Positions 2,879-63,996 of a stretch of 64,000 nucleotides of DNA are shown piece after piece. Each line of letters starts with the position of its first letter. Position 1 is the first letter of the stretch. This DNA comes from Deferribacteraceae bacterium V6Fe1 (GTDB taxonomy: Bacteria > Chrysiogenota > Deferribacteres > Deferribacterales > Deferrivibrionaceae). The position numbers and the translations under genes are program-made. Under the pieces are notes generated by a model. It ran no database searches. It worked only from the letters and a program-made list of their open reading frames with translations, and had not been told where the DNA came from. Where the stretch lies: assembly GCA_022813675.1 (NCBI GenBank), contig CP063375.1, positions 942,001 through 1,006,000 on the forward strand, given 5' to 3'.

Positions 2879-5109
2879 TGGCTTGCCGCATATCTATTCG
2901 AGGTATTGTGCAAGGGGTAGGTTTTCGCCCCTTTGTTTATAATCTTGCGCTCACTGATAATCTTAAAGGATGGATTTCTAACAATACAAATGGGGTTGAA
3001 ATAGTTTTGGATTCTTCCGTTGAAACGGGGATGAATTTTTTAAATAAAATATTGGATAATCTCCCTCCGTTGGCATATGTCCTTGATTATAATGTTGAAG
3101 AGGTTGCCAGTGAGGAAAAAGCTGATAAGTTTTACATAAAGGAATCCTCTATTTGCGAAGGGGTGACATTTGTTTCCCCTGATACTTCAATTTGTGATGA
3201 CTGCAAGCGAGAGCTTTTTGATAAGAGTCACCATAAGTATCTCTATCCATTTATAAATTGTACAAATTGCGGTCCAAGATACTCGATTATTGAAAATATC
3301 CCCTATGACAGGATAAACACTTCAATGAAATACTTTGAGATGTGTGATGTTTGTAAATGTGAGTATGAAAGTGTGACAAACAGGAGATTTCACGCTCAAC
3401 CAAACGGTTGCCATTTATGCGGGCCAAAAATTTACTTTAAAAATTTTGAAGGGGATAAACTACTTGATATTGCAGCAGATTTTTTAAATAGCGGCAAAAT
3501 AATAGGAGTTAAAGGCATCGGTGGGTATCATATTATTTGCGATGCTTTTAACCTTGATGCGGTTAATAGGGTGAGAGATTTTAAAAATAGGCGGTTTAAG
3601 CCCTTTGCACTTATGGTAAAAGACAAAAATATTCTTTTACAATATGGGATTAATTTAACAAAAGAAGAGGAAAAACTTTTTGAAAGCAAAATATCTCCCA
3701 TTCTGATTAAATATGTGGATAACGATAACTTTAAACATATTAATCCTTTAGGTAAAAATATAGGGATTATGAAGGCATATACCCCTATTCATTTACTCTT
3801 GTTTGAAAGGTTCAAGGGGGATTTTCTTATTGCTACAAGCGGTAATAAAAAGGATGAGCCCATTGCAATAGATGCTGAGAGTGCTGAGAAAATTTTGGGG
3901 GATGTTTGTGACCTATTTATTCATAATAACAGAGATATTGTAAATAGGGTAGATGACTCCCTTGTAACATTTATCAAAAAGGCGCCTTATATTTTAAGAA
4001 GAAGCAGAGGGTATGCACCTCTTCCGGTGGTTATGGAAAATAGAAATAAAATACAAGTGGCGGGGCTTGGGGCAAATCTTAAAAGCACTATCTGTTTTTT
4101 GAAAGATGATTTTGCTTTTATAAGTCAGTATGTCGGGGACTTGGAAAATTATGAAACACAAAATTTTTACATTGAAGTTTATAATAGGATGAAAAATCTT
4201 TTTGAGGTTGAGCCTGAAGTTTTAATAACTGACCTGCACCCTAACTTTTTTACAACCAAATTTGCAAGCACCTTTGGAGTTAATATTTACAGTGTTCAAC
4301 ACCATGTTGCCCACATGTATGCCAATATGGCTGAAAATAATTTGAAAGATAATGTTATCGGGGTAATTTTTGACGGAGTTGGGCTTGGGGATGACGGCAA
4401 AATTTGGGGTGGTGAAATATTTGTAAAAAAAGGTAGCTTATTCCGTGAAATTCATCCTGAATACACGCCTCTTGTAGGCGGTGAGACAGCTATCAAAAAC
4501 CCTTATAGAATGTTTTTATCATATCTCGCATATTTTAATATGGATACCGGGTTTTTAAATGATAAGCAGTTGAAAGACTATAATTTGATTAAAAGAATGA
4601 TTGAGAATAATATCAACGTGATAGAAACATCGAGTATGGGTAGATTTTTTGAGGGCATAGGGGCATTCTTGCTATCTATAGAAAAAAATGAGTTTGAAGC
4701 ACATTCGGCGATTGCCCTTGAAGGGATATGCAGAAAAGATATTAATGAATTTTATGAATTTGAAATCATTGATAATGAAATAAGGATAAAAAATATAATT
4801 GCTTCCGTAATAAATGATTTCATCAATGGAGTCGAAACAGCAACAATCGCAACAAAATTTCACAACACTGTTACTCATATAGTGCTGAAATCGGCTATTT
4901 TGATGAGAGAGAAACATCTCTTGGATAAGATTTGCCTTTCCGGTGGTGTTTTCCAAAATATTTTTTTGCTGGAAAAAACAATTGCACTTTTAGAGCAGCA
5001 AGGTTTTAACGTGTTTGTGCATAAAAATATTCCGTCAAACGATGGCAGTATCTCTCTGGGGCAGGTTTATTACTTTCTTTTACATAGTGAAAAATCACAT
5101 AGTGCTTAA
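2878..5109 (+). CDS. hypF: carbamoyltransferase HypF, [NiFe]-hydrogenase maturation
   Basis: HypF makes the thiocarbamate on HypE from carbamoyl phosphate and ATP, the source of the CN ligands of [NiFe] hydrogenases. Domains in order: acylphosphatase (GIVQGVGFRPF), two zinc-finger-like motifs (CDDC...CTNC and CDVC...CHLC), YrdC-like domain (KGIGGYHIICDA) and Kae1-like domain with HHVAH and a later GGVFQN. I place the start at the ATG overlapping the trkH stop (TAATG); a TTG 12 bases upstream is possible but has no better ribosome site. No other hyp gene lies nearby, and the Ehr operon at 22.5-29.7 kb should not need it, so a true [NiFe] hydrogenase probably exists elsewhere in the genome. Confidence 0.95.
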   Translation: MACRISIRGIVQGVGFRPFVYNLALTDNLKGWISNNTNGVEIVLDSSVETGMNFLNKILDNLPPLAYVLDYNVEEVASEEKADKFYIKESSICEGVTFVSPDTSICDDCKRELFDKSHHKYLYPFINCTNCGPRYSIIENIPYDRINTSMKYFEMCDVCKCEYESVTNRRFHAQPNGCHLCGPKIYFKNFEGDKLLDIAADFLNSGKIIGVKGIGGYHIICDAFNLDAVNRVRDFKNRRFKPFALMVKDKNILLQYGINLTKEEEKLFESKISPILIKYVDNDNFKHINPLGKNIGIMKAYTPIHLLLFERFKGDFLIATSGNKKDEPIAIDAESAEKILGDVCDLFIHNNRDIVNRVDDSLVTFIKKAPYILRRSRGYAPLPVVMENRNKIQVAGLGANLKSTICFLKDDFAFISQYVGDLENYETQNFYIEVYNRMKNLFEVEPEVLITDLHPNFFTTKFASTFGVNIYSVQHHVAHMYANMAENNLKDNVIGVIFDGVGLGDDGKIWGGEIFVKKGSLFREIHPEYTPLVGGETAIKNPYRMFLSYLAYFNMDTGFLNDKQLKDYNLIKRMIENNINVIETSSMGRFFEGIGAFLLSIEKNEFEAHSAIALEGICRKDINEFYEFEIIDNEIRIKNIIASVINDFINGVETATIATKFHNTVTHIVLKSAILMREKHLLDKICLSGGVFQNIFLLEKTIALLEQQGFNVFVHKNIPSNDGSISLGQVYYFLLHSEKSHSA

Positions 5110-11998: not shown

Positions 11999-13019
11999 TA
12001 TCATCTCCGAAAGGCTCTTCATTGCCAAACTGCTCATCATATTCACTTAATATTTCATCACACAACTCGTAATTTTTGCTGGCTGCAATAAGATTAACCT
12101 GTTGCATAAGCTCTGTAAGAGTCTTCTTGTTTACTTTGTAGCTGTTTAGGATAATATTTCTCATATTTTCTTCTTCCCCGATACATATGGATATATTATA
12201 TTCTATCACGGCTGCAAGGAGTTTTGGATTTAAATATTCAAATTTTTCATTGTTTAGAAATATCAAAAATTCTGCGGCTTTTTCTATCTCAAATCTAAAA
12301 TAACCTCTCAAAGACATCCCTTCCACAATCATTCTAAGTGCTGAGGTATAAGTTTGGGGCAGAAAATTGATACGCCCGATATTTTTAAAGAAAATTTCCT
12401 TTCGGTAGTCTCTATAATTTTTTTCAATTTCATTAATCTCGTAAAGCGTATCTTCCGCGATATAACTGTCAGGGAAATTTCCAAGTGCCACAAAGATTAT
12501 CTTTCTTGCATTTTCAAAATGGCCTTTGGATACGTAAGCCATTGCCAAATCAGCAAAACTTTGAGGCTCGAGCTTTTTCTCTTTGACAAGCTTTCTGTAA
12601 AGTGCGTCCGCTTTTTTATTTTCCCCTGAAAGCACATAGCTCCACATGAGCTGAATTAGGATATTTGTGTTGCCAGGGTTTAATTTCAAGTTGGTATTGA
12701 TTAATTTTGCAGCCATTGTTGTATTTTGTTCAAACATGTAAACGTTGGCGAGATTGTAATTTGCTTCATAGCAGCCCGGATGAAGTTTAATGGCGGTATT
12801 GAAATACCTTTTTGCTGCACTGAATTGTCCGGTAAGGTATCTTATTTTTCCAAGAAGCGAGTAAAAGGATGCCCTTACCTTATTGTCATAATTAGTGTTT
12901 GATAAGAGTCTTTTCAGCATCTTTTCGGCGGTATCAAACTCATACTCACCAATCAGATATTCAATTTTTTCAAAAAGTCTTTTTGAGAAAAATCCCGATT
13001 TATTTTTAATTTTTTGCAT
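11991..13019 (-). CDS. tetratricopeptide-repeat protein
   Basis: No enzyme signature is visible. The 342 residues are helical with TPR units from about residue 20 to 190 (for example SLLGKIRYLTGQFSAAKRYFNTAIKLHPG and the following YEANYNLANVYMFE unit). The rest is helical with no family I recognise, and the tail is acidic. There is no signal peptide, so it is probably a cytoplasmic scaffold. As first gene of the run leading to the PilB-like protein and pilT (8-base overlap), it may act in pilus assembly or control; that is inference from context. Confidence 0.75.
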   Translation of the reverse strand: MQKIKNKSGFFSKRLFEKIEYLIGEYEFDTAEKMLKRLLSNTNYDNKVRASFYSLLGKIRYLTGQFSAAKRYFNTAIKLHPGCYEANYNLANVYMFEQNTTMAAKLINTNLKLNPGNTNILIQLMWSYVLSGENKKADALYRKLVKEKKLEPQSFADLAMAYVSKGHFENARKIIFVALGNFPDSYIAEDTLYEINEIEKNYRDYRKEIFFKNIGRINFLPQTYTSALRMIVEGMSLRGYFRFEIEKAAEFLIFLNNEKFEYLNPKLLAAVIEYNISICIGEEENMRNIILNSYKVNKKTLTELMQQVNLIAASKNYELCDEILSEYDEQFGNEEPFGDDNE

Positions 13020-34346: not shown

Positions 34347-35654
34347 ATGTCACTTCGTACGAACAATATAAAAATTGCTGTAATAGGGCTTGGTTATGTT
34401 GGTCTCCCCTTGGCTGTAGAATTTGCCAAGAAATTTAAAGTCGTAGGCTTTGATATAAATGGCAAAAGGGTCAAAGAATTAAGTAACTGTAAAGACATTA
34501 CAAATGAGGTTACGGGTGATCAGCTTAAAGAGGTGTTGACTAAAGAGTTTGATGCCAATAATTGTGGCCTTAAAATTACCGATAATATTGACATAATAAA
34601 AGATTGTAACTTTTATATTGTAACAGTCCCAACCCCGATTGACAGACACAAAAATCCTGATTTGAGACCTCTTATCAGTGCCAGTGAAACAGTGGGAAAG
34701 GTTTTAAAAGAAGGGGATATCGTTGTTTACGAATCGACAGTTTATCCTGGTTGCACCGAAGAGGATTGCGTGCCGGTTTTGGAGAAATTTAGCGGATTAA
34801 AATATAATGTAGATTTTTTTGTAGGGTATTCACCTGAAAGGATCAATCCCGGGGATAAAGAGCACACATTTTCTAAGATTAAAAAGGTAGTGTCAGGCAG
34901 CACAAAAGAGGTGGCTGATATTGTAAATAATATTTATTCTCAAGTGGTAGTGGCAGGTACATTTGTGGCATCTTCAATCAAAGTGGCTGAGGCTGCCAAG
35001 GTAATAGAGAATACTCAAAGAGACATTAATATTGCTTTTATCAATGAACTTTCAATGATTTTTGACAAGATGAATATCGACACATTGGAGGTGCTTGAGG
35101 CTGCCGGTACAAAGTGGAACTTTTTGCCATTCAGGCCTGGTCTTGTAGGCGGTCACTGTATCGGAGTTGACCCATATTACCTTGCACATAAGGCAGAGGA
35201 GCTTGGATATCATCCGGAGATGATTCTTGCCGGCCGTAGGATAAATGACTACATGGGGTTATATGTTGCCAATCAGGTAGTAAAACTAATGATTAAAAAA
35301 GGGTATACGATAAAAGGTGCAAGAGTATTGGTGCTTGGCATCACATTTAAGGAAAATTGTCCTGATGTGAGAAACACAAAGGTAGTGGATGTTATAAATG
35401 AGCTAACCGACTTTGGCTGTAATGTTGATGTATACGACCCTTGGGCTGATAAAGAGGAGGTAAAAAGGGAATATAATCTTGAGCTAATTCAACATTCAAC
35501 ATTAAACATTCAGCATTACGATGCCATTATTCTTGCAGTTGCACATAAAGAATTTAAGGAAATTGAAAAAGAATTGTCAAAATCATCTGCTAATGTTGTA
35601 ATTTATGACATAAAGGGATTCTTTGATAAGGAAATTGTGGATGGGAGGCTGTGA
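34347..35654 (+). CDS. UDP-N-acetylhexosamine 6-dehydrogenase (TviB/WbpO type)
   Basis: NAD-dependent oxidation of the C6 hydroxyl of a UDP-HexNAc to the uronic acid, a precursor for surface polysaccharide. Rossmann motif [16 protein letters not shown], then [29 protein letters not shown] with the catalytic-type Cys region, [28 protein letters not shown] with the active Cys in GGHC. This matches TviB/WbpO better than Ugd. The ATG at 34347 has AAGGAG upstream; the longer frame only reads through heptamer repeats. A repeat-derived insertion ([10 protein letters not shown]) lies near residue 385. First gene of the cluster. Confidence 0.9.
35487..35519 (+). repeat. in-frame heptamer insertion in the UDP-HexNAc dehydrogenase
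   Basis: ATTCAAC units (ATTCAAC, ATTCAAC, ATTAAAC, ATTCAGC) inside the coding frame give [10 protein letters not shown] just before the conserved [10 protein letters not shown] block, in a surface-loop position. Confidence 0.7.
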
Positions 35655-39707: not shown

Positions 39708-39741
39708 TTGACATTTAGGAAGTTGTACAATATTGTGTACA
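39708..39741 (+). promoter_or_regulatory. yefM-yoeB promoter with twin TGTACA operator
   Basis: TTGACA, 17-base spacer, TATTGT. Two TGTACA hexamers (39724-39729 and 39736-39741) flank the -10 box 12 bases apart centre to centre. The E. coli yefM-yoeB operator also has palindromes with TGTACA cores, so YefM/YefM-YoeB autorepression here is likely. Confidence 0.8.
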
Positions 39742-39765
39742 TATATAGGTTTTAGAGGTGTATTT

Positions 39766-40020
39766 ATGGAAACAATCTTTTATTCAAAAGCCAGAGAAAA
39801 ACTTGCTGAGCTAATGGATAAAGTCTCAACAGATCATGTGCCCATTACCATTGTTCGCCGGAATAAAGGGAATGTTGTACTGATTTCTGAAGAAGACCTG
39901 CGTTCGTATGAAGAGACTGCATATTTGTTAAAAAGTATTACAAATGCTAGTAGACTTCATGAGTCAGCTCAGGAATTGTCTGAAGGCAAAGGGTATAAAA
40001 AACAATTAATTGAAGATTAG
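39766..40020 (+). CDS. yefM: antitoxin YefM (Phd/YefM family)
   Basis: An 84-residue antitoxin with the N-terminal DNA-binding Phd/YefM fold (METIFYSKAREKLAELMDKV, then VPITIVRRNKGNVVLISEEDLRSYEET) and a charged, probably disordered tail that would neutralise YoeB. I use the ATG at 39766 after AGAGGTG; the open frame extends 33 bases into the promoter, which rules out the longer version. The stop directly abuts the yoeB ATG. Confidence 0.92.
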   Translation: METIFYSKAREKLAELMDKVSTDHVPITIVRRNKGNVVLISEEDLRSYEETAYLLKSITNASRLHESAQELSEGKGYKKQLIED

Positions 40021-40275
40021 ATGGATATTATTTTTTCATCAAATGCATGGGAAGATTATCTCTATTGGCAGGAAAATGATAAAAAGATATTGCGAAAGAT
40101 TAACGAGCTCATAAAGGCAATTGAACGAGAACCTTTCCAAGGCCTTGGAAGCCCTGAACCGCTCAAGTTTCAATTATCCGGTTATTGGTCAAGAAGGATA
40201 AATTTGGAGCATAGGCTTGTTTACACTGTTAAAGATGATAAGATACTAATTCTCCAATGTAGGTACCACTATTGA
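40021..40275 (+). CDS. yoeB: toxin YoeB (RelE-superfamily mRNA interferase)
   Basis: An 84-residue toxin that cuts mRNA in the ribosomal A site. The sequence carries the YoeB pattern: DIIFSSNAWEDYLYWQENDKKILRKINELI, PFQGLGSPEPLKFQLSGYWSRRINLEHRLVYTV and the C-terminal CRYHY containing the catalytic-type His-Tyr. Starts immediately after the yefM stop, so the pair is translated together. Confidence 0.95.
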   Translation: MDIIFSSNAWEDYLYWQENDKKILRKINELIKAIEREPFQGLGSPEPLKFQLSGYWSRRINLEHRLVYTVKDDKILILQCRYHY

Positions 40276-40568
40276 AAGGGAACTAAAAAGTAAAGTCTGC
40301 CAGTTGGATGATATCCTCAAAAATTAGACTTACGGATCACGCAATTTTCCATTTGACATTTCTAATATTTTTCATTATATAGCTCACTGTTACATTGATT
40401 GGGACATAATTTTACAAGTTATTTAATGTCCCGGGTAGTTATTAAATACACATACACAATTAACTTACAGTTCGGTTGCAATCTATGCGGTAGTAGTGTA
40501 TACTGCCATCAACATTGTTCTAAGAGCCAATTAAAACGGGTGGCCTCGGCGGTAGCGTGACGACGAAC
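40276..40568 (+). other. non-coding gap after yoeB
   Basis: No gene is visible in these 290 bases. The only structure I see is GGGACAT...ATGTCCC (40401-40432) with an 18-base loop, too loose for a terminator call. The stretch 40520-40565 is GC-richer than its surroundings. Confidence 0.4.
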
Positions 40569-40603
40569 TGTTCAAAGTTCGGCGTTCAATGTTCAACGTT
40601 AGG
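40569..40603 (+). repeat. left heptamer flank of the four-helix gene at 40.6 kb
   Basis: CTGTTCA, AAGTTCG, GCGTTCA, ATGTTCA, ACGTTAG. It reads as the reverse complement of the tract that follows the gene at 40995, forming an inverted flank around the open reading frame. Confidence 0.75.
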
Positions 40604-40636
40604 GTTTTTAATTTCGATTTTCAAGGTTAAAAGGAT

Positions 40637-41002
40637 ATGAGGATTGAAAGGTTTGAAGATATTGATGCATGGAAAGAGGGAAGGGAGCTTGTGAAAGTAA
40701 TTTACGAGTGTTTTAAAGATAATAAAGATTATAATTTTAAGGATCAAATTCAAAGAGCGGCTATTTCTATAATGTCAAATATTGCAGAAGGTTTTGATAG
40801 AGGTTCTAATAAAGAATTTATTCAATTTTTTGTGATTGCTCGAGCTTCAGCTTCTGAAGTGAGAAGTTTATGTTATGTAGCATTAGATAATGAATATATA
40901 TCAGAACAAATGTTTGAAGATTTAAAAGAAAGGTGTTTAAAAATAAATAGTCTAATAAATGGTTTTATTCGTTATTTAAAAAACTCTAACAGACAACGTT
41001 GA
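40637..41002 (+). CDS. four-helix bundle protein (S23/IVS type), copy A
   Basis: A 121-residue member of the TIGR02436 four-helix family: FEDIDAWKEGRELVKVIYE, DQIQRAAISIMSNIAEGFDRGSNKEFIQFF, ASASEVRSLCYVALD. These proteins were first known from 23S rRNA intervening sequences and resemble Avd of diversity-generating retroelements; no rRNA or reverse transcriptase is nearby. The last codons (SNRQR) already lie in the right-hand repeat tract. Inverted heptamer tracts flank it. A nearly identical copy, frameshifted at the end, is at 63.6 kb. Confidence 0.9.
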   Translation: MRIERFEDIDAWKEGRELVKVIYECFKDNKDYNFKDQIQRAAISIMSNIAEGFDRGSNKEFIQFFVIARASASEVRSLCYVALDNEYISEQMFEDLKERCLKINSLINGFIRYLKNSNRQR

Positions 41003-41112
41003 ACTTTGAACGTAGAACGTAGAACGTAGAACTTAGAACTTAGAAAGTTGAACTTAGAACCTTGAACGTAGAACGTAGAACATAGAACATTGAACCTTGA
41101 ACCTTGAACTTT
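40995..41112 (+). repeat. right heptamer flank, about 17 units
   Basis: The longest tract: GTTGAAC, TTTGAAC, GTAGAAC (three), TTAGAAC, TTAGAAA, GTTGAAC, TTAGAAC, CTTGAAC, GTAGAAC (two), ATAGAAC, ATTGAAC, CTTGAAC, CTTGAAC. The first base pairs of each unit vary while GAAC is constant. It ends just before the manC ribosome site. Confidence 0.85.
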
Positions 41113-44363: not shown

Positions 44364-44470
44364 AGAGGTGAGTAGAGGTTAATAAGCGTTAGTAGGGGTT
44401 AATAGGGGTTAGTAAGGGTTAATAGGGGTTAGTAAGGGTGAGTAGGGGTGATTAGGGGTAGTGTGGGGTG
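44364..44470 (+). repeat. left repeat flank of the four-helix gene at 44.5 kb
   Basis: About nine units of 10 bases: AGTAGGGGTT, AATAGGGGTT, AGTAAGGGTT and variants. This is a different unit length from the heptamers but takes the same place, directly before a four-helix gene. AACCTCTACA-type units (the opposite strand sense) lie at the other end. Confidence 0.8.
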
Positions 44471-44474
44471 CAAA

Positions 44475-44912
44475 ATGAGGAATTGGAAGGATTTGATTGT
44501 TTGGCAGGAGTGCCATAAGCTGGTGATTGAAATTTATAATTTGATGAAAAGTTTTCCAAAGGATGAAACGTTTGGATTATGCTCTCAAATAAAAAGAGCG
44601 GCAGTTTCAATTCCAACAAATATTGTAGAAGGACACTCAAAAAGCTCAAATAAAGAATTTGTAAGATTTTTGTATATTTCTAGAGGTTCTTTAGAAGAAT
44701 TGAAATATTTACTTTATTTATCTAAGGATTTAGGATTTATTAATCTACAAGACTATGGATTATTAGAGGAAAAATTATCCAAAATTGGCTATCTTTTAAA
44801 TAATTTTATGAAATCACTAAACAAAACCTCTACAACCTCTAATACTTCTACAACCTCTAAAACCTCTACAACCTTTACTAACCTTAAATTAGCGGAACTT
44901 CCCAATGAATAA
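44475..44912 (+). CDS. four-helix bundle protein (S23/IVS type), copy B
   Basis: Family motifs WKDLIVWQECHKLVIEIYNL, CSQIKRAAVSIPTNIVEGHSKSSNKEFVRFLYISRGSLEEL. It is a distinct lineage from copies A and C. The ATG at 44475 is preferred: upstream is only repeat. The last 30 residues (NKTSTTSNTSTTSKTSTTF) are read through the right-hand repeat tract, so the original stop has been lost or the tail is repeat-made. The stop overlaps fcl by 8 bases. No function shown; perhaps tied to the repeats that flank it. Confidence 0.88.
   Translation: MRNWKDLIVWQECHKLVIEIYNLMKSFPKDETFGLCSQIKRAAVSIPTNIVEGHSKSSNKEFVRFLYISRGSLEELKYLLYLSKDLGFINLQDYGLLEEKLSKIGYLLNNFMKSLNKTSTTSNTSTTSKTSTTFTNLKLAELPNE
44822..44890 (+). 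repeat. right repeat flank of the four-helix gene at 44.5 kb
   Basis: ACCTCTACA-type 9-base units (ACCTCTACA, ACCTCTAAT, ACTTCTACA, ACCTCTAAA, ACCTCTACA, ACCTTTACT) coding a Ser/Thr-rich tail. Reverse complement AGAGGTT matches the start of the left flank (AGAGGTTAATA). Confidence 0.75.
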
Positions 44913-46122
44913 GAATAGCAAAATAGCAGTTTTTGGAGCAACTGGCCTTGTGGGCAGCGCTATTGTGCGAAAATTGTTTGAAAAAGGATATACAAATATT
45001 ATTGCAAATTATCATAACAGAAAGCCAAATAATTCAACATTCAACATTCAACATTCAACATTAAATACAAATTCTATCGAGTGGATAAGGTTAGACTTAT
45101 TGGATTTTGTTGCTGTAAAAGAATTTTTTGAAGCAAAAAGACCAGAGTTTGTATTTCTTGCTGCAGCAAAAGTTGGAGGAATAGTTGCAAATAATACTTA
45201 CAGAGCCGACTTTATATATGAAAACCTTCAGATTCAAAATAATGTTATCCATAATGCATATAAATATGGGGTTAAAAAATTACTTTTTTTAGGTAGTACC
45301 TGTATCTATCCGAAGGAATGCCCTCAGCCAATCAAAGAGGAATACCTTCTAACAGGTCCACTTGAATATACAAATGAACCATATGCCATAGCAAAAATAG
45401 CAGGCATTAAGATGTGTGAGAGCTTTAATCTTCAATATGGCACAAACTTCATCTCAGTAATGCCAACAAATCTTTATGGAGAAAATGACAACTTTGACCT
45501 TGAAAAATCTCATGTCCTGCCAGCTCTTATTAGAAAGATACATCTTGGGAAATGTTTAGAAGAAGAAAACTTTGAAGCTATAAGAAAAGATTTGGATAAA
45601 AATCCAATTGAAGGTGTAGATGGAAGAGCAAGTAAAGAAGAGATTTTAAACATATTAAAAAATTATGGTATTTCATTCAAAATTCAAAATTCAAAATTCA
45701 AAATTTCCGTAGAAATTTGGGGATCGGGAGAACCGAGACGCGAATTTCTATGGAGTGATGATATGGCAGATGCCTGTGTGTATCTTATGGAGCAAGTCAA
45801 TTTCGAAGATATCATTAAACAAAACAATTCAACACTCAAAATTCAACATTCAACATTATCAAATGAGTTTTTTAACGAAGGTAGAAACACTCATATTAAT
45901 ATCGGCACCGGCAAAGATATCTCTATAAAGGATTTAGCATATCTAATAAAAGATATTATTGGCTTTAAAGGTGACTTTTGCTTTAATACACAAAAACCAG
46001 ATGGGACGATGAGAAAAGTGACAGATGTGAGCAAGCTACACTCTCTTGGATGGAAGCATAAGGTAGAGTTGGAAGAGGGGATTAAGAGGGTTTATGGGTG
46101 GTATTTGGAGAATGAGAAGTAA
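44905..46122 (+). CDS. fcl: GDP-L-fucose synthase
   Basis: Epimerase/reductase giving GDP-L-fucose from the gmd product. Motifs: AVFGATGLVGSAIVRKL, FLAAAKVGGIVANNTYRADFI, FLGSTCIYPKECPQPIKEEYLLTGPLEYTNEPYAIAKIAGIK with catalytic Tyr and Lys, PTNLYGENDNFD, VWGSGEPRREFL-like block. At 405 residues it is about 90 longer than typical. Three heptamer-coded inserts and a lengthened segment near 205-255 account for this. All inserts are in frame. Confidence 0.92.
   Translation: MNKNSKIAVFGATGLVGSAIVRKLFEKGYTNIIANYHNRKPNNSTFNIQHSTLNTNSIEWIRLDLLDFVAVKEFFEAKRPEFVFLAAAKVGGIVANNTYRADFIYENLQIQNNVIHNAYKYGVKKLLFLGSTCIYPKECPQPIKEEYLLTGPLEYTNEPYAIAKIAGIKMCESFNLQYGTNFISVMPTNLYGENDNFDLEKSHVLPALIRKIHLGKCLEEENFEAIRKDLDKNPIEGVDGRASKEEILNILKNYGISFKIQNSKFKISVEIWGSGEPRREFLWSDDMADACVYLMEQVNFEDIIKQNNSTLKIQHSTLSNEFFNEGRNTHINIGTGKDISIKDLAYLIKDIIGFKGDFCFNTQKPDGTMRKVTDVSKLHSLGWKHKVELEEGIKRVYGWYLENEK
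45029..45075 (+). repeat. in-frame heptamer insertion 1 in fcl
   Basis: Four near-perfect ATTCAAC units coding NNSTFNIQHSTLNTNS before the conserved LDLLD segment. Confidence 0.8.
45674..45705 (+). repeat. in-frame heptamer insertion 2 in fcl
   Basis: Four perfect AATTCAA-type units (ATTCAAA repeated) coding FKIQNSKFKI before the WGSGEPRREFLW block. Confidence 0.8.
45826..45860 (+). repeat. in-frame heptamer insertion 3 in fcl
   Basis: ATTCAAC, ACTCAAA, ATTCAAC, ATTCAAC, ATTATCA coding NSTLKIQHSTLS, before the HINIGTG block. Confidence 0.8.
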
Positions 46123-46185
46123 AAGGTGAGAGGGAAGAGGTAAGAAGTGAGAAGTAAGAAGTGAGAAGTGAAATGTGAGAGAGTT
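46122..46185 (+). repeat. left heptamer flank of the four-helix gene at 46.2 kb
   Basis: GTGAGAG, GGAAGAG, GTAAGAA, GTGAGAA, GTAAGAA, GTGAGAA, GTGAAAT, GTGAGAG. Its inverse (TTCTCAC/TTTCACG) follows the gene. Confidence 0.85.
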
Positions 46186-46548
46186 ATGAAAACACATAAG
46201 GATTTGGATGCATGGAAGGAGGCTATAATATTGGTAAAAGAAATATATGGGTTAACTTTATCTTTTCCTAAAGAAGAAATATATGGTTTGACTTCTCAGA
46301 TTAGAAGATGTGCGGTTTCAATTCCAAGTAATATAGCAGAAGGTGCAGCTAGAAATAGCACCAAGGAGTTTATACAGTTTTTATATATTGCATTAGGATC
46401 ATGCGCTGAGTTAGATACTCAATTGATAATTGCAAAAGAATTAGGATATATTAACGAAGAATGTCTGGAATTGTTTAGCAAAATAGAAAGAATTAAAAGT
46501 AAGATTTTAGGACTCATCAGGTATCTGAGGAACAAAAATGTCAAATAA
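46186..46548 (+). CDS. four-helix bundle protein (S23/IVS type), copy C
   Basis: A 120-residue family member: THKDLDAWKEAIILVKEIYGLT, SQIRRCAVSIPSNIAEGAARNSTKEFIQFLYIALGSCAELDTQLIIAKELGYI. ATG at 46186; the frame open upstream of it is repeat. Inverted GTGAGAA/TTCTCAC tracts flank it at once on both sides, the clearest example of the arrangement in the window. Function unknown. Confidence 0.9.
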   Translation: MKTHKDLDAWKEAIILVKEIYGLTLSFPKEEIYGLTSQIRRCAVSIPSNIAEGAARNSTKEFIQFLYIALGSCAELDTQLIIAKELGYINEECLELFSKIERIKSKILGLIRYLRNKNVK

Positions 46549-46783
46549 CATTTCACGTTTCACATCTCACTTCTCACGTTTCACTTCTCACGTTCAACGT
46601 TTAATGACTCATCCCGGCTTCTGCCGCTACAGTGCAAACACTGCCTGGCTTTTTGCAGAAAAAATTTTACGTATGGTTGTGGGGCTTTTTGTAGGAGTTT
46701 GGGTTGCGAGGTATCTTGGACCTAGCAAATACTGGCTTTTAAGTTATCAAACAGATTGTGGAAAATATATAAAGATTTGCTAA
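46538..46783 (+). pseudogene. 5' remnant of a wzx-type O-antigen flippase
   Basis: After a repeat-coded start the frame reads HPGFCRYSANTAWLFAEKILRMVVGLFVGVWVARYLGPSKY, the beginning of a polysaccharide flippase of the MATE/MVF type. The match ends near 46735 and the rest is unrelated. The 35 bases after that lead to the rfbF ribosome site. The break marks where the tyvelose cassette replaced the older genes; a complete flippase lies at 51.9 kb. Confidence 0.8.
46543..46605 (+). repeat. right heptamer flank of the four-helix gene at 46.2 kb
   Basis: CATTTCA, CGTTTCA, CATCTCA, CTTCTCA, CGTTTCA, CTTCTCA, CGTTCAA, CGTTTAA: reverse complement of the left flank units. Read through in the next frame it supplies the N-terminal SRFTSHFSRFTSH of a truncated flippase gene. 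Confidence 0.85.
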
Positions 46784-54756: not shown

Positions 54757-54938
54757 TAATAATTTATAGTGAGATGAGCATGTGGAATTGATTATAAGGA
54801 TTTGGAAGTATGGAAGAAAAGTATTACTTTAATTAAATCTATTTATAGAGTTCGTAATGGTTTTCCACAGGAAGAAAGGTATGGCTTGGTTGATCGAATC
54901 AAAAGAAGTGCAGTTTTAATTTCTGCTAATATTGCTTG

Positions 54939-55242
54939 CCCTGTGGAATAAAATGTTTTATGTGTATGTGTTGCAGAGTGAAAAAGATATGAAATTTTAT
55001 GTTGGTATAAATCAAATTTACGTGAGAGAGTTAGCAGCACAAAAATGCAAACGTAAAATCAACTAAACATAGGAGACTACTAAAATTGATTTATTATGAA
55101 GCTTGTATTAGTCAAAAAGGCGCATTGAAAAGAGAAAAATATTTAAAATCAACTTACGGAAAAAGATATATAAAAAATAGATTAAAAAATTATTTGGATA
55201 CTATAGAATAATTGAATTTGATGTTTTTGATATTCCACAGGG
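54939..55242 (+). mobile_element. 304-bp GIY-YIG mini-element with 12-bp inverted repeats
   Basis: Bounded by CCCTGTGGAATA (54939-54950) and its perfect reverse complement TATTCCACAGGG (55231-55242), and almost filled by one small GIY-YIG gene. It interrupts the four-helix gene at its conserved SANIAEG codons. No clear target duplication is seen. Mobility driven by the nuclease, as for homing-type elements, is inference. Confidence 0.8.
54953..55211 (+). pseudogene. GIY-YIG endonuclease gene, frameshifted
   Basis: Starts MFYVYVLQSEKDMKFYVG (the Y-V-Y and Y-V-G forms of GIY-YIG). After CKRKIN the frame hits a stop; shifting by one base recovers TKHRRLLKLIYYEACISQKGALKREKYLKSTYGKRYIKNRL, with the catalytic Glu (YYEA). 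One extra A near 55058 explains the break. Small UvrC-N-type proteins of about 85 residues like this are very common as stand-alone genes in bacteria. Confidence 0.85.
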
Positions 55243-55454
55243 TAAAGGGAGTGGAAGAAATGCTGCAAAGGAATTCATACAATTTTTATATATTTCATTA
55301 GGTAGTGCCTATGAATTGGAAACACATTTAATAATATCAAGATAAGTTTGATTTTTGAAAGATATTGATGATATAATAGAACAAATTAATGAAATTAGAA
55401 AAATGCTGAATGGATTAATCAATTCTTTAAAGAACAAGGTGATCAAAAATGAAT

Positions 55455-56600: not shown

Positions 56601-57839
56601 ATGAACAATCCACAAGTCAGGAATACCAAATCCCGATTTACCAATCACCCATCACGGCTCCTATATAAACTAATTGACGACACTTACTTAGACGAAAATG
56701 GCAAAATAAAAGAAGAATATAAATTTAGCATCAATATTCCAAAATTCAAAATCCAAAATTCAAAATTAATTGGAAAGCCTGAGGATAAATTTGAAACCAT
56801 GCTTTTTTTGCCTGAAGGAGAAGGAAGGAAAGGAGAAGGTGGTTTAAGAACAAAGGGATATTTTAAATTTTCATACGAAAATTTAATGGTAAATGATGAA
56901 TGCTTGATTATGGATGAAAGTAAAAAAGATAATATTAGTGATAAAAATAAAATTCAAAATCCAACATCTAAAATTCAACATTCAAAAAAGTGGTACATAG
57001 TCGACCACGACGGCAACCCAGTTGAGCCCGCTCCTGACTACATTCAAACACAAATAACCTCTCACCTCTCACAGCTCACCTCTCACAGCTCACCTCTCAC
57101 GTCACTGCCCCTAATCACTGTCATCACTGTTGTCTACAATGGCGAAAAATACCTTGAAGAGACCATTCAAAGCGTAATAAACCAAACCTATCCAAATGTA
57201 GAATATATTATAATAGATGGTGGCTCAACTGACGGAACACTTGATATAATTAAGAAGTATGAAGATTATATTGATTACTGGGTGAGTGAGAAGGATAATG
57301 GAATTTATGATGCGATGAATAAGGGAGTGGATGTTGCACTGGGTAAATGGGTGTATTTTTTAGGGTCTGGAGATATTTTTTATAGTTCCCATGTTTTAAA
57401 ATCTATTTTTATCGATCTTAAGGATTTGGGATCTGCCTTTATTCTTTTTGGGGATATTATTTATGACGATGGTAGATTGTTTAAAAGTCGATACGGTACA
57501 AGTCTTTATTATAGAAATACAATACATCACCAAGGAGCATTTTATCGACGAAAGTTATTTGATAAATTTCGCTATCAAAGTAATTATATTGTTTCTGCAG
57601 ATTACGAATTAAATTTAATGCTTTTTTGTAATAAAAATCCTTCTTTAAATGTGAAAATTATAATAGCAAAATGCAATAATGAAGGTATTTCTAATCAAGT
57701 AAACTTACGGGGATATATTGAAGAAATTGAGATTAGACATAAATATCTGGGGAGAATAAATTTACTGAAATACGATTTGTTGACATTGCTGAGGTATTTA
57801 ATTAAGAGGTTTTCAAAAAATGTATTACTACGTAAGTGA
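56601..57839 (+). CDS. glycosyltransferase family 2 with repeat-laden N-terminal extension
   Basis: The catalytic GT-A domain runs from about residue 172: LITVITVVYNGEKYLEETIQSVINQTYPNVEYIIIDGGSTDGTLDII, NGIYDAMNKGVDVALGKWVYFLGSGD; C-terminal HHQGAFYRRKLF and SADYELNLML match the WcaA/colanic type. The first 170 residues are not a known domain and include three repeat-coded segments (FKIQNSKLIG, KIQNPTSKIQHSK, QITSHLSQLTSHSSPLTSL). The usual short lead of such enzymes is 5-10 residues, so the real functional part may begin near 170. Overlaps the polymerase gene by 20 bases. Confidence 0.85.
   Translation: MNNPQVRNTKSRFTNHPSRLLYKLIDDTYLDENGKIKEEYKFSINIPKFKIQNSKLIGKPEDKFETMLFLPEGEGRKGEGGLRTKGYFKFSYENLMVNDECLIMDESKKDNISDKNKIQNPTSKIQHSKKWYIVDHDGNPVEPAPDYIQTQITSHLSQLTSHSSPLTSLPLITVITVVYNGEKYLEETIQSVINQTYPNVEYIIIDGGSTDGTLDIIKKYEDYIDYWVSEKDNGIYDAMNKGVDVALGKWVYFLGSGDIFYSSHVLKSIFIDLKDLGSAFILFGDIIYDDGRLFKSRYGTSLYYRNTIHHQGAFYRRKLFDKFRYQSNYIVSADYELNLMLFCNKNPSLNVKIIIAKCNNEGISNQVNLRGYIEEIEIRHKYLGRINLLKYDLLTLLRYLIKRFSKNVLLRK
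56739..56768 (+). repeat. in-frame heptamer insertion 1 in the 56.6-kb glycosyltransferase
   Basis: AATTCAA, AATCCAA, AATTCAA, AATTAAT coding FKIQNSKLI. Confidence 0.75.
56950..56988 (+). repeat. in-frame heptamer insertion 2 in the 56.6-kb glycosyltransferase
   Basis: AATTCAA, AATCCAA, CATCTAA, AATTCAA, CATTCAA coding KIQNPTSKIQHSK. Confidence 0.75.
57047..57107 (+). repeat. in-frame heptamer insertion 3 in the 56.6-kb glycosyltransferase
   Basis: ACCTCTC, ACCTCTC, ACAGCTC, ACCTCTC, ACAGCTC, ACCTCTC, ACGTCAC coding a Thr/Ser/His/Leu-rich linker right before the GT domain. This unit resembles the TTCTCAC flank of the 46.2-kb four-helix gene rather than ATTCAAC. Confidence 0.8.
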
Positions 57840-63591: not shown

Positions 63592-63620
63592 ACGTTCAAT
63601 GTTCCATGTTCAACGTTATA
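63592..63620 (+). repeat. left heptamer flank of the four-helix gene at 63.6 kb
   Basis: CGTTCAA, TGTTCCA, TGTTCAA, CGTTATA. The inverse (ACGTTGAACT) begins after the gene at 63990 and runs off the window edge. Confidence 0.75.
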
Positions 63621-63632
63621 TGATGAAAGTGT

Positions 63633-63996
63633 ATGAGGATTGAAAGGTTTGAAGATATTGATGCATGGAAAGAAAGAAGGGAGCTTGTGAAAGTAATTTA
63701 CGAGTGTTTCAAAGATAATAAAGATTATAATTTTAAGGATCAAATTCAAAGAGCGGCTATTTCTATAATGTCAAATATTGCAGAAGGTTTTGATAGAGGT
63801 TCTAATAAAGAATTTATTCAATTTTTTGTGATTGCTCGAGCTTCAGCTTCTGAAGTGAGAAGTTTATGTTATGCAGCATTAGATAACGAATATGTATCTG
63901 AACAAATGTCTGAAGAAATAAAGAAAAATTTTTAAAAATAAATAGCCTAATAAATACCTTTGTTCGTTACATAAAAAGCTCTAGCAGACAACGTTG
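63633..63996 (+). pseudogene. four-helix bundle gene (S23/IVS type), copy E, frameshifted near the end
   Basis: Near-identical to copy A at 40.6 kb over about 330 bases, with scattered point changes. The frame stops at 63935 after EEIKKNF; reading one base over gives LKINSLINTFVRYIKSSSRQR, the normal C-terminus. A small deletion in an A/T run is the cause. It could still yield a shortened four-helix protein. Heptamers flank it as for copy A, and the direct orientation of the two copies brackets 23 kb of the cluster. Confidence 0.85.

Follow-up and report, generated by a model that had tools for sequence, protein, structure and literature searches.

A window of 64,000 bp (G000:C1:942001-1006000; contig CP063375.1) from the genome of Deferribacteraceae bacterium V6Fe1, which is 2.36 Mb in one contig, was analyzed for genes of a four-helix-bundle (FHB) protein family, PF05635/TIGR02436, and for the short-period tandem tracts beside them. 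Until now, the FHB family has been known chiefly from members residing within ribosomal RNA genes. Between 39 and 64 kb, the window includes a polysaccharide locus with manC-type, gmd, fcl-type, nucleotidyl transferase and glycosyl transferase genes. This locus carries four FHB genes, designated as A, B, C and E, and a broken copy D (Table 1). A further copy is present at 339 kb of the genome. Copies A, B, C and E scored 113.7, 131.8, 136.4 and 100.5 bits, respectively, against PF05635 (curated cut-off, 33.8), and all are above the cut-off of TIGR02436, the family to which an initial annotation, made from the letters of the window, had assigned them.

The four genes stand between a left tract and a right tract composed of inverse units, and tract, gene and inverse tract together are called a cassette below. 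The GTTCAAC and GTTGAAC tracts described for copy A and the GTGAGAA and TTCTCAC tracts described for copy C were recovered with Tandem Repeats Finder (TRF) and by direct reading. Copy E has the same arrangement. Its left tract was detected with TRF, and its right tract, which begins at about 63990 and lies almost entirely past the window end, was read in L037 of the flanking genome as GTTGAACTTTGAACTTAGAACGTAGAACATAGAA. The looser pattern of copy B, with 10- and 9-bp units, was also detected with TRF. The unit varies between copies as annotated, and arms match only within their own cassette. The right tract of copy A stops 18 bp upstream of the ATG (41128) of the manC-type gene, and the phase of the left tract of copy C extends into the last codons and the stop of the fcl-type gene ending at 46122. 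The true start of copy B is probably the ATG near 44475.

Table 1. FHB copies and their tandem tracts, in window positions unless a genome handle is given
Feature	Position	Strand	Description and evidence
Copy A left tract	40570..40600	+	GTTCAAC-type units; TRF and direct reading
Copy A FHB gene	40637..41002	+	121 aa; PF05635 6.1e-33; TIGR02436 (NCBIfam)
Copy A right tract	40995..41109	+	Inverse of left tract, GTTGAAC/GTAGAAC; TRF and direct reading
Copy B left tract	44367..44459	+	10-bp units GGTTAGTAGG, phased with the gmd gene end; TRF and sequence
Copy B FHB gene	44448..44912	+	PF05635 1.4e-38
Copy B right tract	44825..44884	+	9-bp units AACCTCTAC, translated as the C-terminal end of the open reading frame; TRF
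Copy C left tract	46108..46180	+	GTGAGAA-type; TRF
Copy C FHB gene	46168..46548	+	ATG at 46186; PF05635 5.1e-40
Copy C right tract	46551..46602	+	TTCTCAC-type; TRF; predicted long-range stem with left tract
Copy D, broken FHB gene	54781..55430	+	PF05635 halves at G000:996796-996936 and 997244-997414
Copy E left tract	63594..63617	+	GTTCAAT-type; TRF
Copy E FHB gene	63633..63935	+	Shortened by a frameshift near its end; PF05635 7.8e-29

Matched inverted flanks at operon junctions

FHB genes were gathered by protein similarity alone from relatives of the window genome and from 80 loci of named genomes, and 131 genes were compared. Because of this choice, the flanks had no influence on the sample. 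The left flank was aligned to the reverse complement of the right flank, and a score of at least 30 was counted as matched. Matched inverted flanks were found for 60% of the 131 FHB genes, in contrast to 2.8% of 534 open reading frames (ORFs) from the same loci, 1.6% of mispaired left and right flanks, and 0 of 655 shuffles. Among small ORFs (80-200 aa) from the same loci the proportion was 4.6% (Fisher p = 2.5e-29 against the FHB genes); orthologues and duplicated loci are included among the 131 genes, so this and the other p-values are formal and overstate independence, and the effect size is what counts. Tandem periodicity of 5-12 bp on both sides was seen for 43% of FHB genes and 1.7% of controls. 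The unit is mostly 7 bp, occasionally 6-10 bp, with a locus-specific sequence.

The effect is observed in every larger phylum sampled. The passing genes were 29 of 49 in Bacteroidota, 4 of 7 in Thermodesulfobacteriota, 3 of 3 in Bacillota, and 2 of 3 each in Nitrospirota and Pseudomonadota, together with single loci of several other phyla; those of Cloacimonadota (0/2) and Balneolota (0/1) failed. The enrichment over other genes, proposed as a check in the initial annotation, is thus present, and the inverted-tract observation is real and general, far beyond chance. An artefact of composition, in which AT-rich, slippage-prone DNA happens to surround small genes, would agree with the local clustering of heptamer tracts in the polysaccharide locus. 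It is refuted by the small-ORF, mispaired and shuffled controls and by the effect across many phyla, and its probability is negligible.

The left arm starts at a median of 4 bp past the upstream stop codon, and a median of 9 bp separates the end of the right arm from the downstream start codon, as called by a simple automatic ORF rule. Co-orientation with both neighbours was found for 101 of the 116 FHB genes with close neighbours, compared with 567 of 757 ORF triplets. Therefore, from the arm ends and the co-orientation, the cassette fills operon junctions. The occupied junctions, named from flanking peptides, include gmd/fcl in several families of the window's order, fadB/fadA and fadA/fadE in Bacteroidota, and groES/groEL in a search of the genus Chryseobacterium. 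The package in operon junctions spans at least a dozen bacterial phyla.

The left arms are poor in C, and G exceeds C in 74 of 79. Stop codons in all three sense frames are present in 42 of 80 left arms, against 17 after shuffling and 16 on the opposite strand. Where an element has a clear tract of period 7, the two sense codons that precede the upstream stop agree in phase with the left tract (0.41 versus 0.26, p = 1.8e-4, n = 45), with the consensus taken from post-stop sequence only and a lag analysis alongside. No significant in-phase match was found between codons 2-3 of the downstream gene and the right tract (p = 0.12, n = 43). At copy C, the phased units are ATGAGA, AGTAAAA, GGTGAGA, GGGAAGA, GGTAAGA and AGTGAGA, with the stop TAA in unit 2. 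At copy B, they are GGTGTGAAGA, GGTGAGTAGA and GGTTAATAAG, with the gmd stop TGA in unit 1. The stop-to-start position and this phase are additions to the initial annotation, as is the tie to ribosomal RNA described below.

At groES/FHB/groEL, dN/dS is about 0.04; in this one lineage the protein is under strong purifying selection, and it is therefore real. The relatives with solved structures, 2gsc and 2rld, have five chains each, and S23p of Xanthomonas has been described as a homopentamer of four-helix bundles (PMC4990558). PF05635 resembles Avd of diversity-generating retroelements (DGRs) (PMC10053308). The median isoelectric point of the FHB proteins is about 8.0 (interquartile range 6.5-8.9), which is mildly basic. 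Y1_Tnp had no match in the scanned proteins of the window nor in the FHB-rich genomes G000 and G009, and RVT_1 had none in the FHB-bearing genomes G001, G003, G004 and G016, some of which are drafts. An obligate partnership with a reverse transcriptase (RT) or a Y1 transposase is thus not supported, as far as can be told from these FHB-bearing relatives, partly drafts.

Exchange of cassettes and the origin of their arms

Copies A and E share 93% DNA identity from 7 bp 5' of the ATG into the right tract. They have the same arm unit in unrelated contexts and nothing in common outside the homologous stretch. A genus search around G060 showed a separate FHB clade at each junction; fadB/fadA and groES/groEL, which hold more than one clade, are the exceptions. 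At fadB/fadA, the two FHB clades are unrelated to each other, and so are their two arm sets. In the Chryseobacterium search, three deep FHB clades as well as gene-less inverted pairs occupy the one junction groES/groEL. The flanking groES and groEL DNA is up to 97% identical between species of different content (FHB1 versus FHB2, 96.9%; FHB1 versus gene-less, 96.8%).

These data bear on the possibility that the tracts arise by themselves at operon junctions, through slippage and template switching, and the gene arrives later. The gene-less pairs at groES/groEL are in line with it, and so are solo tracts in the polysaccharide genes of the window and GAAC-type heptamer tracts scattered through G003. 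However, copies A and E bear the same unit at unrelated places, the arms switch along with the gene clade at fadB/fadA, and almost no strict tracts were found in random 20-kb samples of the window genome. Such an order of events appears rather improbable.

Arms match inside a cassette type (diagonal 19-35) better than across types (11-24), and the one clear case of a unit shared between types is FHB2 with FHB3. Within a lineage, an arm pairs with the partner arm of an orthologue just as well as with its own. The matching is therefore a property that the cassette has at installation, with no base-by-base upkeep; in one genus search, no base-by-base co-evolution of arms was seen between own and orthologue-swapped arms. 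This result disagrees with concerted evolution, in which gene conversion or quasi-palindrome correction would preserve the similarity between the arms of one old insertion per junction. The recurrence of gmd/fcl, fadB/fadA and fadA/fadE across genera fits that explanation, but where the arms switch, the FHB clades are unrelated or deeply diverged as well, and it is considered very doubtful.

The arms might instead be kept complementary by pairing in the transcript, with RNase III removing the gene-bearing loop, as in the 23S rRNA intervening sequence (IVS). The gene is mostly in sense orientation, and in the predicted fold of copy C the two tracts pair in a long stem (z -3.8). RNase III cuts out the rRNA IVS in Coxiella, and the mobility of IVSs was already guessed (PMC4990558). 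The G-U-compatible arm mismatches, however, show no sense-strand excess (192 sense versus 211 antisense), and the equal pairing of own and orthologue-swapped arms reveals no compensatory evolution. Maintenance at the RNA level is unlikely, and selection on an RNA stem was rejected as unsupported by G-U asymmetry or covariation.

In G011, which belongs to the same order as the window, an FHB gene with heptamer arms lies inside the 23S rRNA gene, near helix 45 by position arithmetic. The IVS of Coxiella is in helix 45, with 2-3 tandem heptamers GACAGAT upstream of its ORF (PMC4990558). Given the heptamer-armed gene of G011 and the heptamers of Coxiella, rRNA IVSs and operon cassettes therefore look like one kind of element.

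It is likely, with a probability of roughly 0.68, that a PF05635/TIGR02436 gene located outside rRNA usually forms the core of a small mobile cassette at operon junctions, and that the 23S rRNA IVS is one special case of it. The mirrored tracts and the gene, swapped as a unit, point to an undescribed kind of mobile element. The initial annotation had suggested a unit that moves or drives the spread of repeats. The first part agrees with tracts and gene being gained, lost and swapped together, but a protein driving repeat spread lacks support here.

Several observations weigh against the mobile cassette. About 40% of the FHB genes are below the threshold, without clear matching arms. The phase with the upstream gene can also result from slippage that extended the tract into the end of that gene, and the groES/groEL swaps could stem from recombination between species rather than fresh insertion. 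No integrase, transposase or RT travelling with the FHB gene was found that would explain the movement step. The initial annotation had proposed a search for empty sites in sister strains; swaps and gene-less forms were found, but no strain-level pair of empty and filled states at a tract-free orthologous site was found among the loci compared. The 21 short groES/groEL junctions were rejected as clean empty sites, since most of them keep inverted tract pairs of other units. All 21 together differ from background spacers (p = 1.6e-4); pairs of the TTGTACA type are clear, and those of the TCTGACA type are weakly above background. G003 has a filled gmd/fcl junction and an empty one at another locus, with 5 bp from stop to start, but these are paralogous and not orthologous. 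Recent duplicates with wholly different arms in G004 and G011 were dropped as a candidate when closer reading revealed shared inner units. In 50,697 phage records, there were 0 matches to the FHB family, and its plasmid matches were mostly cyanobacterial.

If the cassette is mobile, a unit of about 450-550 bp, with a left short-period tandem tract, a gene for a pentameric FHB protein and the inverse right tract, would land between the upstream stop and the downstream start, usually in sense, and would be gained, lost or exchanged whole. Loss of the gene would leave a gene-less inverted pair. The matching arms may be laid down when the cassette is installed: the left tract would be extended in phase out of the upstream gene's 3' end, with its stop codon, and the right tract would be an inverted copy of the left. 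The Avd-related ring protein could hold or guide nucleic acid, and the chemical steps would fall to replication or recombination enzymes of the host. The 23S rRNA IVS would be a cassette of this kind, located in helix 45. It is tentatively proposed, as a possibility less probable than not, that these are a new class of elements building their own ends from the target, in which integration past a stop codon amplifies the upstream 3' end as a 7-nt tandem tract and copies it inversely on the other side, the ends are locus-specific, and a non-enzymatic pentameric ring protein is the sole gene.

We know of no function for PF05635, a common family, and of no accepted origin of rRNA IVSs since their discovery. 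Should the family form the core of a mobile operon-junction cassette, these two puzzles would meet, and the rRNA IVS would be one landing site of a widespread element. The movement and the matching inverted short-repeat ends of an enzyme-less element would become testable. The cassette would also account for many odd heptamer tracts and their encoded peptides in the window's order, Bacteroidota and others, and for the tolerance of operons to insertions.

Solo tracts, nested insertions and neighbouring genes

Solo short-period tracts were found inside polysaccharide genes of the window at 35487-35517, 45032-45062, 45675-45705, 45827-45857, 56731-56767, 56949-56987 and 57057-57100. Their orientation keeps the frames open; ATTCAAC gives NIQHSTF-like peptides in all frames. 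They are possibly scars or offshoots of cassette arms. Solo tracts as a dense genome-wide background were rejected by the random samples of the window genome.

Copy D is split by a GIY-YIG-like ORF, on either side of which lies a 12-bp inverted repeat (54939-54950, 55231-55242). FHB genes are split at the same conserved codon site, between NI[A/V] and EG, in G000, G009 and G016 (54781-55430; L048, about 12100-12800; L059, about 4180-4880). The inserted ORF is bounded by the inverted repeat CCCTGTGGAATA and TATTCCACAGGG, and the right end is slightly different in G016. This is a nested and apparently site-specific insertion. A wider element with this end motif was rejected, as the two other exact matches among relatives are without a partner repeat.

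Immediately 5' of copy A, a Phd/YefM antitoxin gene is followed by a YoeB-like toxin ORF recognized by eye (39733-40276). The FHB genes at groES/groEL and in the fatty-acid operon (L223-L242, L203-L222) are kept across many genomes of the Chryseobacterium search, and a benefit to the host is possible. G058, from another phylum, has 19 partial PF05635 matches in close opposite-strand pairs.

Comparison with known systems

No prior paper linking the family generally to inverted tandem tracts was found in the open-access literature, in agreement with the initial annotation, which knew of no repeat-linked function; a description elsewhere is possible. The 23S rRNA IVSs with an S23p ORF, from Coxiella and Leptospira, resemble the cassettes in the PF05635 protein, the inverted-repeat ends and the sense gene. 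The copies in the window likewise have inverted, stem-forming ends around an ORF, but they lie between polysaccharide genes and not in 23S rRNA. The cassettes differ from these IVSs in their position at junctions of protein operons, many copies per genome, locus-specific arms, gene-less forms and swaps. Compared with insertion sequences, the arms are inverted but locus-specific, and there is no clean orthologous empty site at which a target duplication could be read.

The initial annotation had compared the cassettes with RAYT/REP elements. REPIN/RAYT (TnpA-REP) systems combine one gene flanked by inverted repeats with gene-less inverted pairs elsewhere (PMC3116915, PMC8266576), and the gene-less forms of the cassettes parallel this logic. 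Membership fails: RAYT is a Y1 HUH nuclease and REPs have a fixed sequence, whereas FHB proteins are without such a domain and the unit changes by locus.

Avd of DGRs has a homologous fold, and copy B matches the models of bAvd and Avd with scores short of the respective cut-offs. Membership of the cassettes in DGRs fails on the defining parts, as neither an RT nor a template or variable repeat was observed next to them. At G009:C9:253565-255004, a weak FHB match adjoins an RVT_1 gene; this is likely a true Avd-RT pair of a DGR, distinct from the cassettes.

Miniature inverted-repeat transposable elements, short tandemly repeated repetitive sequences and the TAACTGA repeats of Beggiatoaceae (PMC4679880) resemble the cassette tracts as short heptamer direct repeats between genes. 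Those are direct arrays, whereas the cassettes have matched inverted arms around a gene family.
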